Origin: Clostridia bacterium
Lineage (GTDB): Bacteria > Bacillota > Clostridia > Christensenellales > SZUA-584
DNA length: 64,000 nucleotides
Reading direction: 5' to 3'
Assembly: GCA_003249555.1 (NCBI GenBank)
Contig: QKIQ01000044.1
Location: 62,001-126,000 of the forward strand
Shown here in pieces: positions 30,569 to 47,761 of the stretch. The notes beneath the pieces are model-generated. The model ran no database searches. It saw nothing but the letters and a program-made list of their open reading frames with translations, and was not told where the DNA came from. The translations under genes and the position numbers were made by a program. Every line of letters starts with the position of its first letter. The stretch's first letter is position 1.

Positions 30569-33500
30569 TTATCTGCTCGGTTTGCTCTTATTATCGTGTG
30601 CAAGCGAGAGCATGAGTTTAATGCGGTTGAGTTGGTTTACTTCGCTTGCGCCCGGGTCATAATCAATAGCAACGATATTGGCTTCAGGGAAGCGCGTGCG
30701 TATGGCTTGTATGACGCCTTTGCCCACGATATGGTTGGGCAGACACGCAAAAGGCTGTACGCATACGATACCATCAGCGCCTTCTTTAAGCAGCTCCGCC
30801 ATTTCACCTGTTAAGAACCAGCCTTCACCCGTTTGATTGCCTATAGATAAGAACTCTGCCGCGGCACGGGCTTTTTCATCGATGAACGACGGTGCGGAGA
30901 ACCGTTTGCTCTGGTTTAACACTTTACGCATCAGCTTGCGTGAGCGCTCAATCACCGATACTGCGAAGCTGCCAAAATGCATAAACAGCTTCGGCCGTCC
31001 AAGCTTTTCATATTTGAAGCCGGTATTGTAAGCACAGTACAGCAAAAAGTCAATAAGATCAGGCACCTTAACCTCGGCACCCTCTTCCTCAAGCACCTTG
31101 ACGATCTGGTTGTTGGCGGTGGGGTGGTATTTTACCAGTATCTCGCCAACCACGCCGATCACGGGCTTTTTCTCATCGGTGACGGGAATATTATCGAACT
31201 CATTGACCATTTCTACGATATGACGGCGATATTTTCGCTTGTGAAAGTTTTTAATATCCGTCAGGGCAATATCACGCCATTTTTCATACATGGCTTGTGT
31301 GTCGCCCGCAGCCATCTCGTAAGGACGTGTGGCAAGCGTCAGCCGATTGAGCAGATCGCCGTATATCATGCCGCGCATTGCCCGACGCAGCATGGGCAGT
31401 GTGATTTTAAAGCCTGGGTGTCTCTCAAGGCCTGAGGCACTCAGAGAAATGACGGGGATATGGCTAAAGCCCGCGTCTTTGAGCGCCTTGCGAATAAACC
31501 CGATGTAGTTGGATGCCCGGCAGCCGCCGCCTGTCTGCGTGATGATGCAAGCAAGTTTGTCCGTGTTGTAACGCCCGGATTTGACCGCTTCGATAAGCTG
31601 TCCTGTGACGATGATGGACGGATAGCAGGCATCGTTGTTGACGTATTTTAACCCTTCATCAACAGCAGCTGTATCCACAGAGGGAAGCAGTTCGAAACGG
31701 TAGCCAGAAGACTCAAACGTGGCGCGCAGAAAATCAAAGTGGATGGGAGACATCTGCGGCGAGAGTATGGTGTAGTCTTTCTTCATGACCTTCTCAAAGA
31801 CGACCTTTTTATACGCGTAAGCACGCTGTTTGACGGCATCCGCAATATCGCGGATGACACGTCTCTTTTTGCGCTCAGCCACAGCTGCGGCGAGCGAACG
31901 TAAACGGATGCGAATCGCGCCTGTGTTGTTGATTTCATCAATTTTAAGCAGCGTATATATCTTGCCGTAAGCTTCTAATATTTCCTGTGTCTGGTCGGTG
32001 ACCACCGCATCCAGCCCGCATCCGAATGAGTTAAGCTGCACGAGCTCCAGACCCTCCGTCCGTCCCGCAAGATGAGCGGCGGCATAGATTCGTGTATGGA
32101 ACATCCACTGGTCGAGCACGCGCAGCGGCTTGTACTCACCAAGATGCGCAACGCTCTGTTCGGTCAGCACAGCGAACCCGAGCGATGTGATAATGGACGA
32201 AATTCCGTGATTGATCTCCGGATCGATATGGTACGGGCGGCCGCCGAGAATGATGGCCTGCATCTCGCCGTGTTTGACTTTGGCCATGATACTCTCGCCT
32301 TCGCGGCGGATATCGCTCTGGAAGTTGAGCTTTTCCTTCCAAGCGGCCCTTGCGGCGCGCTTCACCTCAGACGCGGGGATATGAGAAAACTCTTCCACCA
32401 GCCTTTTTGTAAGGCGGTTGATGGTGTCCATCGGCAGGAAGGGCATCAGAAAAGACACGCCGTTTTCCTTGATTTCAGGCATGTTGTTTTTTATGTTTTC
32501 CGCGTATGACGTGACGATGGGACAGTTATAGTTGTTGGCGGCTTTTTTCTGCTCCTTCTTTTCGTAGGGCACACACGGAAAGAATATCGTTTTGACGCCG
32601 CTGTCAACAAGCTTACGCACCGCGCCGTGAGCAAGCTTGGCCGGATAACACAGCGATTCGGACGGGATGCTTTCAATACCCGCCGTATAGACGCTGCGTG
32701 TGGACCGGGGAGAAAGCTCCACGCGGTAAGACAGCTCAGTGAAGAAGGTGTGCCAGAACGGATAGTTTTCGTAAATACCCAGCACGCGCGGGATGCCGAT
32801 GCGTCCGCGTTTGGCATCGCTTTCGTCAAGCGGCCGGTACTGGAACAGCCGTTTGTAGGTATAGTTGTACATGTCCGGCAGAGAATGGCTGGTATTGGCA
32901 GTGCTTTGTCCGCTGCCGCGTTCGCATCTGTTGCCCGATATGAATTTGCGACCGTCGCCGAAATGGCTGACGGTAAGACGGCAGTTGTTTTCACACCGAC
33001 CGCAACGCGCATATGATTGTGTGATGTGCATGGCATCAAGCGCTTCGCTTGAAAGAATTGACGATACCGCTTCTTCCGGACAGCGTTTTTTGGCGATCAG
33101 CGCCGCGCCATAAGCCCCCATGAGCCCGGCAATGGCAGGACGCACCACCTCGCGGCCCGAGAGTAGCTCAAACGCGCGCAGCACGGCGTCGTTCAAAAAA
33201 GTTCCGCCCTGAACAACCACATTTTTGCCAAGCTCATCAGGATTTTTGAGCTTGATGACTTTGTAGAGTGCATTTTTTATGACGGAATACGACAGCCCCG
33301 CCGAGATGCCGCCCAGCGTCGCGCCTTCCTTTTGCGCCTGACGCACTTTGGAATTCATAAACACCGTGCATCGGCTGCCCAAATCGACAGGCTGCGGTGC
33401 GAACAGTGCATGCTTGGTAAAATTCTGTATTGAGCAGGACAGCGAAGCCGCAAAGGTTTCAAGAAATGATCCGCATCCGGACGAGCACGCTTCGTTAAGT

Positions 33501-34813
33501 ATGACCTCGTCGATCACACCGTCCTTGATGCGCATGCATTTCATATCCTGACCGCCGATATCGAGTATAAAATCGGTATCAGGACGGAAGAACTGCGCTG
33601 CCGTATAATGCGCAACTGTTTCCACCTCGCTTGTGTCGAGCGAAAAAGCGGCTTTGACGAGGTTCTCACCGTAGCCCGTGGAAGCCGCATGCGCGATATA
33701 AGCGCTTTTTGGCAGACGGCTGTAAATATCTGATAATATCTCACGAATCATGTCCAACGGGCGGCCTTTGTTAGCGCCGTAATGCGAATAGACGATGTTT
33801 CCGTCATCATTAAGCAGTACGGCCTTCGTTGTGGTCGAACCCGCATCGATGCCCAGATAGCAGGGGCCTTTGCATGTTTCAAGAGGCTGTATGGATACAG
33901 CGGCTTTTTTATGGCGCTGCGTAAATGCGGTATAATCCGCTTCGCTTGCGAATAACGGAGGCAGACACACGGATGTGTCTTCAAACGCCGATGCGGTTTG
34001 CGCCATTTGCAGCAGATCTGACAGACTGACCTTTGTTTTATCCGCCATAATGGCTGCACCTGCTGCAACAAACATCATGGCGTGAGGCGCGTCCATAATA
34101 TTCTCATCTTTGAGTTTGAGTGTGTCTACAAAACGGTTTTTCAGCTCAGACAGAAAATGCAGCGGCCCGCCTAAAAAAGCGATGTTGCCGCGAATGGGAC
34201 GACCGCAAGCAAGCCCGCTGATGGTTTGATTTACGACAGCCTGAAATACAGAAGCCGCGATGTCCTCCCTAGCCGCGCCTTCGTTGATAAGCGGCTGGAT
34301 ATCGCTCTTGGCAAACACCCCGCACCGTGCAGCAATGTCGTAAATATGTGTGGCTTTCGAAGCAAGTAAATTGAGCCCTGCGGCGTCAGTCTCTAAAAGC
34401 GATGCCATCTGGTCAATAAAAGCACCCGTACCGCCCGCGCATGTACCGTTCATGCGCTGCTCGGTGCTTCCTGAGAAATATGTGATTTTGGCGTCTTCGC
34501 CGCCCAACTCAATCGCTACGTCGGTACCGGGAATAAAAGCCTTCACGGCGCTGCTTGCCGCAATGACTTCCTGTACAAATGGTATTTTAAGCCACTTGCC
34601 AACACTGAGCCCGCCTGAGCCTGTGACACAGGCATACATATCGATATCGCCGACTTCTTTGTAGGCGTGCTGGAGCATCTTTAAAACGCTCCCGGCGATA
34701 TCGCTGAAATGTCTTTGGTAGTCGCTGAAAACAACTTTATTTTGATTAAGTACCACACATTTAACGGTTGTGGATCCGATATCAAGTCCGAAACGGATGC
34801 GAAGTGTCTCCAT
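30569..34813 (-). CDS. 2-hydroxyacyl-CoA dehydratase activase-type ATPase (BadF/BcrA family, DUF2229)
   Basis: A 1414-residue protein. Two actin-fold ATPase (BcrAD/BadFG) domains are fused: the first begins at FGLDIGSTTVK (~8), the second at YLGIDAGSTTTK (~322) with LDIGGQDMKCM and the cluster cysteine in NEACSSGCGS. A DUF2229 part follows, then a C-terminal HgdB-like dehydratase-type region. Such proteins bind a [4Fe-4S] cluster and use ATP to push an electron into a partner enzyme. No dehydratase subunits lie nearby. ATG 34813 has AGGAGATAAATT upstream. Confidence 0.9.
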   Translation of the reverse strand: METLRIRFGLDIGSTTVKCVVLNQNKVVFSDYQRHFSDIAGSVLKMLQHAYKEVGDIDMYACVTGSGGLSVGKWLKIPFVQEVIAASSAVKAFIPGTDVAIELGGEDAKITYFSGSTEQRMNGTCAGGTGAFIDQMASLLETDAAGLNLLASKATHIYDIAARCGVFAKSDIQPLINEGAAREDIAASVFQAVVNQTISGLACGRPIRGNIAFLGGPLHFLSELKNRFVDTLKLKDENIMDAPHAMMFVAAGAAIMADKTKVSLSDLLQMAQTASAFEDTSVCLPPLFASEADYTAFTQRHKKAAVSIQPLETCKGPCYLGIDAGSTTTKAVLLNDDGNIVYSHYGANKGRPLDMIREILSDIYSRLPKSAYIAHAASTGYGENLVKAAFSLDTSEVETVAHYTAAQFFRPDTDFILDIGGQDMKCMRIKDGVIDEVILNEACSSGCGSFLETFAASLSCSIQNFTKHALFAPQPVDLGSRCTVFMNSKVRQAQKEGATLGGISAGLSYSVIKNALYKVIKLKNPDELGKNVVVQGGTFLNDAVLRAFELLSGREVVRPAIAGLMGAYGAALIAKKRCPEEAVSSILSSEALDAMHITQSYARCGRCENNCRLTVSHFGDGRKFISGNRCERGSGQSTANTSHSLPDMYNYTYKRLFQYRPLDESDAKRGRIGIPRVLGIYENYPFWHTFFTELSYRVELSPRSTRSVYTAGIESIPSESLCYPAKLAHGAVRKLVDSGVKTIFFPCVPYEKKEQKKAANNYNCPIVTSYAENIKNNMPEIKENGVSFLMPFLPMDTINRLTKRLVEEFSHIPASEVKRAARAAWKEKLNFQSDIRREGESIMAKVKHGEMQAIILGGRPYHIDPEINHGISSIITSLGFAVLTEQSVAHLGEYKPLRVLDQWMFHTRIYAAAHLAGRTEGLELVQLNSFGCGLDAVVTDQTQEILEAYGKIYTLLKIDEINNTGAIRIRLRSLAAAVAERKKRRVIRDIADAVKQRAYAYKKVVFEKVMKKDYTILSPQMSPIHFDFLRATFESSGYRFELLPSVDTAAVDEGLKYVNNDACYPSIIVTGQLIEAVKSGRYNTDKLACIITQTGGGCRASNYIGFIRKALKDAGFSHIPVISLSASGLERHPGFKITLPMLRRAMRGMIYGDLLNRLTLATRPYEMAAGDTQAMYEKWRDIALTDIKNFHKRKYRRHIVEMVNEFDNIPVTDEKKPVIGVVGEILVKYHPTANNQIVKVLEEEGAEVKVPDLIDFLLYCAYNTGFKYEKLGRPKLFMHFGSFAVSVIERSRKLMRKVLNQSKRFSAPSFIDEKARAAAEFLSIGNQTGEGWFLTGEMAELLKEGADGIVCVQPFACLPNHIVGKGVIQAIRTRFPEANIVAIDYDPGASEVNQLNRIKLMLSLAHDNKSKPSR

Positions 34814-35083
34814 AATTTATCTCCTGTATGCTTAAATGCAAGTATACACCCTGCAAACAAAATAGAAAAGCAAATAGATGCAAAATTAATATGATTTTTG
34901 ACTGATAGTTATGTACGTTCATATTGTAGCATTCACTATAATATATTGTATAAGAAACCATAGATTTATATAATGGCAGAAACGAATCCATAAATATTGT
35001 GATTATGGCTGATTATTCTTCCTTGGGGGAAAAATACGTAATTTATTAAGCGTATTCTTTAAAATGCATTTAAATGCACAAGC
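34814..35083. other. AT-rich intergenic region with plus-strand promoter and palindrome
   Basis: No gene seen. A plus-strand promoter (TTGTAT-N17-TATAAT, 34946-34974) is present. A hairpin AATACG/CGTATT (35034-35057) with a short T run may end a short transcript. TGCATTTAAATGCA (35065-35078) is a perfect 14-bp palindrome; a related TGCTTAAATGCA lies in the leader of the activase gene (34829-34840). Confidence 0.4.
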
Positions 35084-35112
35084 TTGCATTGGACAGCGCG
35101 CTGTGTTATGAT
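35084..35112 (+). promoter_or_regulatory. Promoter of the candidate structured RNA
   Basis: TTGCAT (35084-35089), 17-bp spacer, TATGAT (35107-35112). It points at the RNA described next and lies six bases after a perfect palindrome. Confidence 0.6.
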
Positions 35113-35116
35113 TAAT

Positions 35117-35290
35117 ATACCAACAAATAACACCGCGAAAATGCGGGTTTTTATGCCAGGGGTGTCTCGCATATCTTGAACACTGCACTGGCAAATGATA
35201 CGTCGGGTATTCCGGCGCGCTGCATCGTCTGCACTTTATTATTCGTTTTGCTTGGCAGTATTGGTGGCACCCCTTTGATCGCGGTTTTTT
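35117..35290 (+). ncRNA. Candidate structured RNA, about 170 nt, with closing stem and terminal U run
   Basis: No reading frame, but a dense set of nested pairings. P1: ACCGCGA (35132-35138) with TCGCGGT (35279-35285), then six T. P2: AGGGGTGTC (35158-35166) with GGCACCCCT (35266-35274). P3: ACTGC (35182-35186) with GCAGT (35255-35259), extended by GGCAAA/TTTGCT. A local hairpin is CGTCGG/CCGGCG (35201-35217). The 5' strand of P1 can instead pair locally (CCGC-GAAAAT-GCGG). It could be a free small RNA (6S-like in size) or a leader of the DapB-like gene 170 bases on. Class unknown to me. Confidence 0.5.
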
Positions 35291-35462
35291 CATCGTGAGG
35301 GGAAAGAAAATACTTTTTATGTCGTTATATCAGTTGGTTTAGTGTTCTTTTCTTTACCGACTTTGATTTAGGTTATCATCTGGTTATTGAAGCATTATGT
35401 GTTTAAAACAGACGATATCTAAACATGAGAAATATTTATTAACAGTTAAGGAGGAGTATTCG

Positions 35463-36242
35463 TTGAAAATAAGAATTGGAATGTTCGGTTTTGGTAAAAC
35501 CGGATTTGTTGTAGCGAATGAAATCATTAAAGATGACGAATGCGAGTTAAAATGGGTCTTAAGAAAGTCACGAAAGAATGAAGGGGAATACGCGAGCCAT
35601 CTGCATGGCTATGAGTTTGGACAAGGAAAGATCTATCCAATCAGCGAGATAGATCCGGAAACTTTTTTCAAAGAAAACTTTGTTGACGTCATTATTGACT
35701 TTTCTGCGAGCAGTGCTGTTGACATATACAAGCATGCTGCCCGTTTTGGAACGCGTATTGTCTCTGCGATATCCAAATATGAAAAGAAACAGCTCGATCA
35801 GCTAAAAGCACTTGGCAATATTGTTCCTGTGCTATATTCGCCAAATATTACGCTGGGGGTTAACTTCCTTATTGAAGTATCTAAGGTGCTGCAAAGAATT
35901 GTACCTGATGCGGATATTGAAATTATAGAAGAGCATTTTAAAGGCAAACCGGATACATCGGGCACTGCGCTGCGCATAGCGGAGGATTTGGGGTTGGACC
36001 GCCACAAGCATGTGAACTCAATACGCGTCGGGGGTATTGTCGGTAAGCACGAAGTTGTGTTCGGGCTTCCCAATCAGACAATACGCATCGTGCACGAGTC
36101 GCTGAACCGTGCGGCATTTGGACAGGGCGCGATTTACGCAACAAAGTGGCTTATGGGTAAAGCCAAAGGCATCTATACCATGGAGGAGGCCGTGATGCTG
36201 ACTGCCGCGCGCAATCTCCAGATATATGAGAGCAACGCTTAA
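35463..36242 (+). CDS. DapB-family (dihydrodipicolinate reductase-like) oxidoreductase
   Basis: A 259-residue NAD(P)-dependent reductase. The Rossmann loop is GMFGFGKTG. The substrate domain has EEHFKGKPDTSGTAL, which matches the DapB signature E-HH-K-D-SGTA except that the second His is Phe and Pro is Thr. The C-terminal pattern RVGGIVGKHEVVF and RAAFGQGAIYA is DapB-like. The usual GTTG motif reads SAIS. It may be DapB with relaxed motifs or a related enzyme on another imine. The start is TTG at 35463 after AAGGAGGAG. It is monocistronic. Confidence 0.75.
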   Translation: MKIRIGMFGFGKTGFVVANEIIKDDECELKWVLRKSRKNEGEYASHLHGYEFGQGKIYPISEIDPETFFKENFVDVIIDFSASSAVDIYKHAARFGTRIVSAISKYEKKQLDQLKALGNIVPVLYSPNITLGVNFLIEVSKVLQRIVPDADIEIIEEHFKGKPDTSGTALRIAEDLGLDRHKHVNSIRVGGIVGKHEVVFGLPNQTIRIVHESLNRAAFGQGAIYATKWLMGKAKGIYTMEEAVMLTAARNLQIYESNA

Positions 36243-47582: not shown

Positions 47583-47648
47583 ACAAAAAAACCTCCTTCC
47601 CTTGAATATAGGCAAAGATACGCCATTAAGAGAATTTGGTTCTCATTA

Positions 47649-47742
47649 GCAGCGGACGCGACTTCGTACCGCAGGCTTTAAAGCCTTTCGTCCCCGGGCG
47701 ACATCCCATCCCAAGGCACTTAACGCACAAAATCTACTCTGC
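47649..47742 (-). ncRNA. Tetrahydrofolate (THF) riboswitch, class I
   Basis: On the minus strand the conserved THF-I core is plain: GCAGAGTAGA at the 5' end, GCGTTAAGTG, GGATGGGATGTCG, ACGAAAGGC, then GCGGTACGAAG and the closing CCGCTGC. GCAG/CTGC closes P1. The element lies about 67 bases upstream of folT, with a small hairpin GAGAA/TTCTC between it and the ribosome site. High cellular folate should lower FolT expression. Confidence 0.92.
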
Positions 47743-47761
47743 ACTCATATCAAGACACCTC

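Follow-up and report, generated by a model that had tools for sequence, protein, structure and literature searches.

The locus at 35084-35290 of the window (the whole 64,000-nt stretch of DNA analyzed here) combines a promoter, several possible RNA stems, and no gene, which raises the question of whether it yields a small RNA of its own or the 5′ end of a longer message. We favor the latter: 35119-35462 is probably a structured cis-regulatory leader of the dapB-like gene that follows, outside known RNA families, and not a free RNA of 170 nt. The promoter noted in a preliminary description of the sequence is present at 35084-35118 of the forward strand, by sequence and promoter scan, with sigma-70-like boxes TTGCAT (35084-35089) and TATGAT (35107-35112) separated by 17 nt and a second pair, TGGACA-17-TAATAT, overlapping them. 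The putative transcription start gives a 5′ leader of ~340 nt (35119-35462, forward strand, as are the leader features below), near the end of which lies the Shine-Dalgarno sequence AGGAGGAG (35449-35456). The gene itself (35463-36242, forward strand) matches PF01113/PF05173 and TIGR00036 (127.8 bits); it is a dapB paralogue, and a stronger dapB match (219.9 bits) occurs elsewhere in the genome, at G000:C41.

The same arrangement recurs in relatives. Orthologues of the dapB-like gene were identified with 79% (G001), 74% (G003), 73% (G002), and 66% (G053) identity, and in G001, G002, and G003 the orthologue has the same divergent CoA-activase gene upstream and is preceded by a promoter of the form CTTGCAT/CTTGATT-17-TAATAT/TATCAT, then by a leader of about 290-400 nt. 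The leaders of the window, G001, and G002 are homologous: local-alignment scores were 93 for window-G001, 74 for window-G002, and 54 for G001-G002, exceeding all 300 dinucleotide shuffles of each pair (maxima of 56, 55, and 51, respectively), while the similarity of the G003 leader to the others was not above dinucleotide shuffles. In the window, the upstream neighbor (30569-34813, reverse strand) encodes a 1414-aa acyl-CoA dehydratase activase fusion of BcrAD_BadFG and DUF2229; this gene is divergent with respect to the leader, and its synteny extends through the family.

Between the promoter and the dapB-like gene, the terminator scan found only a weak 5-bp stem at 35133, the U-run of which has no counterpart in G001 or G002. 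A discrete RNA of ~170 nt is therefore unlikely. Transcription would instead run from the promoter straight into the dapB-like gene, and the shared promoter, homologous leader, synteny, and lack of a terminator before the gene bear out the suggestion, also made in the preliminary description, of a leader for this gene. No tRNA or tmRNA was found, and an antisense ORF at 35003-35293 (96 aa) was taken as non-coding because it has no homologue in G001-G003 and its alignment gaps are not multiples of three.

The free RNA of ~170 nt had been drawn as a long-range rod, closed by CCGCGA:UCGCGG and ended at a U6 run. Its elements all exist in the sequence: 35132-35138 can pair with 35279-35285 (the 7-bp closing stem), 35158-35166 with 35266-35274 (the 9-bp stem), and 35182-35198 with 35243-35259 (the third, innermost stem), and the TTTTTT run lies at 35285-35290. 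The single-sequence fold of this 178-nt stretch is unremarkable and not above chance, with a minimum free energy of -52.3 compared with a shuffle mean of -46.3 (z = -1.42; 17 of 200 shuffles equally good). When the stretch was extended by 38 nt to 35333, the rod (-57.3 kcal/mol) and a set of local hairpins (-58.0 kcal/mol) were nearly equal in energy. The rod was drawn from the window sequence alone, so that its test in G001 and G002 is unbiased; 49 of 77 pairs (0.64) were kept in these two genomes, compared with a mean of 0.42 and a maximum of 0.54 for slid versions. Most of this excess is due to the innermost helix, with 13 of 15 pairs retained in G002 (6 of 10 in G001, where its partner is partly deleted). 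The closing stem keeps three of six pairs in G001, and in G002 it falls in an alignment gap. The 9-bp stem, with 12 of 20 pairs (0.60) in the two genomes, does not exceed the slide maximum of 0.61. The U6 run, rather than forming an RNA end, is predicted to be the loop of a local hairpin at 35279-35298 (UCGCGGU-UUUUUC-AUCGUGA), and the scan found no terminator there; a stem that closes a 140-nt loop is in any case no intrinsic terminator. Thus, although the promoter, the long-range stem, and the U6 run exist and the rod is energetically almost on a par with the local fold, an independent small RNA ending at U6 is improbable.

The leader is instead predicted to fold as a row of local hairpins, P1 to P4. 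P1 (35129-35149; AACaCCGC/GCGGGUU) is the promoter-proximal hairpin, coincides with the weak terminator-like stem, and appears in folds; at its position G001 and G002 also have a hairpin, of unrelated sequence. P2 (35154-35193) pairs UGCCAG with CUGGCA around an inner GUGU/ACAC helix, is present in the minimum-free-energy structure of the window sequence alone, and keeps 11 of 12 pairs in G001 and 8 of 12 in G002. P3 (35201-35217; CGUCGG/CCGGCG) is a candidate hairpin that was seen in folds; G001 and G002 contain GCCGG hairpins that resemble it. P4 (35258-35313) has an outer GUAUU/AAUAC helix, a conserved GGUG, an A-rich 3′ strand, and an inner CCCC...GGGG hairpin (35270-35273 with 35299-35302). 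Within P4, GUAUUGGUG is invariant across the three genomes (the window, G001, and G002). The GGUG of the P4 loop and the CUGC-UCGU stretch are likewise invariant, in contrast to adjoining sequence that is free to change.

P2 and P4 were both predicted by RNAalifold on a sequence-only MAFFT alignment (A3) of these three leaders, although at the inner P4 hairpin the row of the window sequence is misregistered. Compared with column shuffles, the alifold z-score was -5.1 for the P1-P2 columns (none of 300 shuffles as good) and -4.2 for P4 (1 of 300). The P2/P4 pairs were 87.5% paired, with seven pairs changed on both sides compared with 2.9 in shuffles, and had a covariation score of 0.417, far above slid versions, although these counts lean in their favor since the pairs were chosen on the same alignment. 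In these three sequences, the only clearly homologous ones, P2 and P4 are kept and show compensatory changes, the covariation that had been proposed as a check on structure at this locus.

Whether such a fold could switch was also raised in the preliminary description, which held that the 5′ strand of the closing stem can form a hairpin of its own. That hairpin (CCGC/GCGG, 35133-35146) does use this strand. With the innermost helix largely kept in G002, the two-state idea survives in modified form: P2 may offer its 3′ arm to two alternative partners, its own 5′ arm and the segment immediately preceding P4. The second pairing would form the third stem above, which cannot coexist with P2 or with the base of P4. 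The most likely switch would be a shift, dependent on a ligand or a protein, from P2/P4 to this alternative helix or back. A switch between P2 and P4 through the 9-bp stem was rejected, as p for its duplex was 0.62 in G001 and 0.92 in G002, compared with 0.05 in the window.

How such a shift could reach the gene is less apparent, since no recognizable expression platform was found: the leaders have no shared terminator across species, and the Shine-Dalgarno sequence has no common pairing partner, the segment that pairs with it differing from species to species. This fits a passive leader, in which the hairpins do no sensing and only protect the 5′ end of the mRNA or space the ribosome-binding site. 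We consider that reading possible but rather unlikely, as it leaves the invariant GGUG of the P4 loop and the invariant CUGC-UCGU amid variable sequence to be accounted for, together with the riboswitch control of the same gene in relatives described below.

Known families were searched for with Rfam, at gathering thresholds and at E-values up to 10, and no meaningful match was found in the leader (34810-35470 for 6S), in line with the preliminary description, which saw no match to T-box, lysine, or other familiar riboswitch cores. The leader resembles 6S RNA (RF00013) in its similar length and rod-like drawing; however, it has no 6S match at E ≤ 10, and the genome has a standard 6S RNA on another contig (G000:C118:5249-5427; 61.9 bits), which speaks against the divergent 6S RNA that had been put forward. 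GGUGGCACC in the leader resembles a T-box antiterminator bulge, but T-box leaders (RF00230) gave no Rfam match and the leader has no terminator; the T-box-like GGUGGNACC is replaced by GGUGAACGCC in G001, so that a UGGN bulge is not conserved. The c-di-AMP riboswitch (ydaO/yuaA; RF00379) shares the position of the leader in front of orthologous dapB-like genes but neither its sequence nor its structure, and the Na+ riboswitch (DUF1646; RF03071), found upstream of one orthologue in tandem with a c-di-AMP riboswitch, has a GGUUGG...UUUCAAGA core that the leader lacks. In the five family genomes (G000-G004; incomplete assemblies), RF00379 had no match and RF03071 none over the cut-off, with sub-threshold matches of 12-15 bits all at other loci. 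A diverged 6S-2, T-box, c-di-AMP, or Na+ element would suit the gene context in the case of the last two and the bulge likeness in the case of the T-box, but with none of the four matched at E-values up to 10 such a kinship is highly improbable. Elsewhere in the window, a THF riboswitch (RF01831; 79.9 bits) lies at 47648-47743 on the reverse strand.

To date, the element appears limited to a single genus and a single locus, a restriction that would also suit a passive leader. Two covariance models, R1 for P3-P4 and R2 for P4, gave convincing matches among 396 genomes of the order only at the three known loci, all at the dapB-like gene. Within the five family genomes, they revealed no convincing additional copy; a weak match in G003 lies on the correct strand at GUAUUGGU (8.7 bits; E = 0.15). 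A DNA search of 150 relatives returned nothing beyond chance matches of about 20-33 bases, and phage, plasmid, and viral collections had no match to the leader.

In more distant bacteria, orthologues of the dapB-like gene lie directly behind c-di-AMP riboswitches at five loci (L046, L049, L050, L051, and L055), one of which, L046, also has a Na+ riboswitch. In L046 (Firmicutes bacterium HGW-Firmicutes-16), the Na+ (2727-2777) and c-di-AMP (2808-2937) riboswitches stand in tandem before the gene, an arrangement that has been reported for dapB (PMC9337991). White et al. reported that dapB and ablA are accompanied by Na+ and c-di-AMP riboswitches, which they interpreted as osmotic-stress control (PMC9337991). 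From this context we infer that the leader may sense an osmotic or ionic signal; it would control the dapB paralogue, a gene apparently tied to the osmotic or ionic stress response in relatives, and would fill the role that Na+ and c-di-AMP riboswitches have at the same gene there. The further step, that it is a new riboswitch class, seen in one genus so far, that responds to such a signal and replaces the Na+ and c-di-AMP riboswitches at a dapB-type osmolyte gene, is distinctly doubtful. Were the leader regulatory, the same osmotic-stress gene would be governed by three distinct RNA devices, depending on the bacterium, the ligand question would be testable with Na+, K+, c-di-AMP, and osmolytes as candidate signals, and P4, at 56 nt, would offer a small conserved core to probe; a passive leader would be ordinary.

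The order of one operon, L045 (476-3780), in which a c-di-AMP riboswitch (RF00379) is followed by ablA, ablB, and an orthologue of the dapB-like gene, suggests that the dapB paralogue may work in the synthesis of the osmolyte N-acetyl-β-lysine. Among the five family genomes (G000-G004; incomplete assemblies), four yielded no AblA. The fifth, G003, has only a broken copy, a lysine 2,3-aminomutase-like gene interrupted by two in-frame stops (L149; G003:C99:7728-8687), which scored 490.8 bits, below the cut-off.
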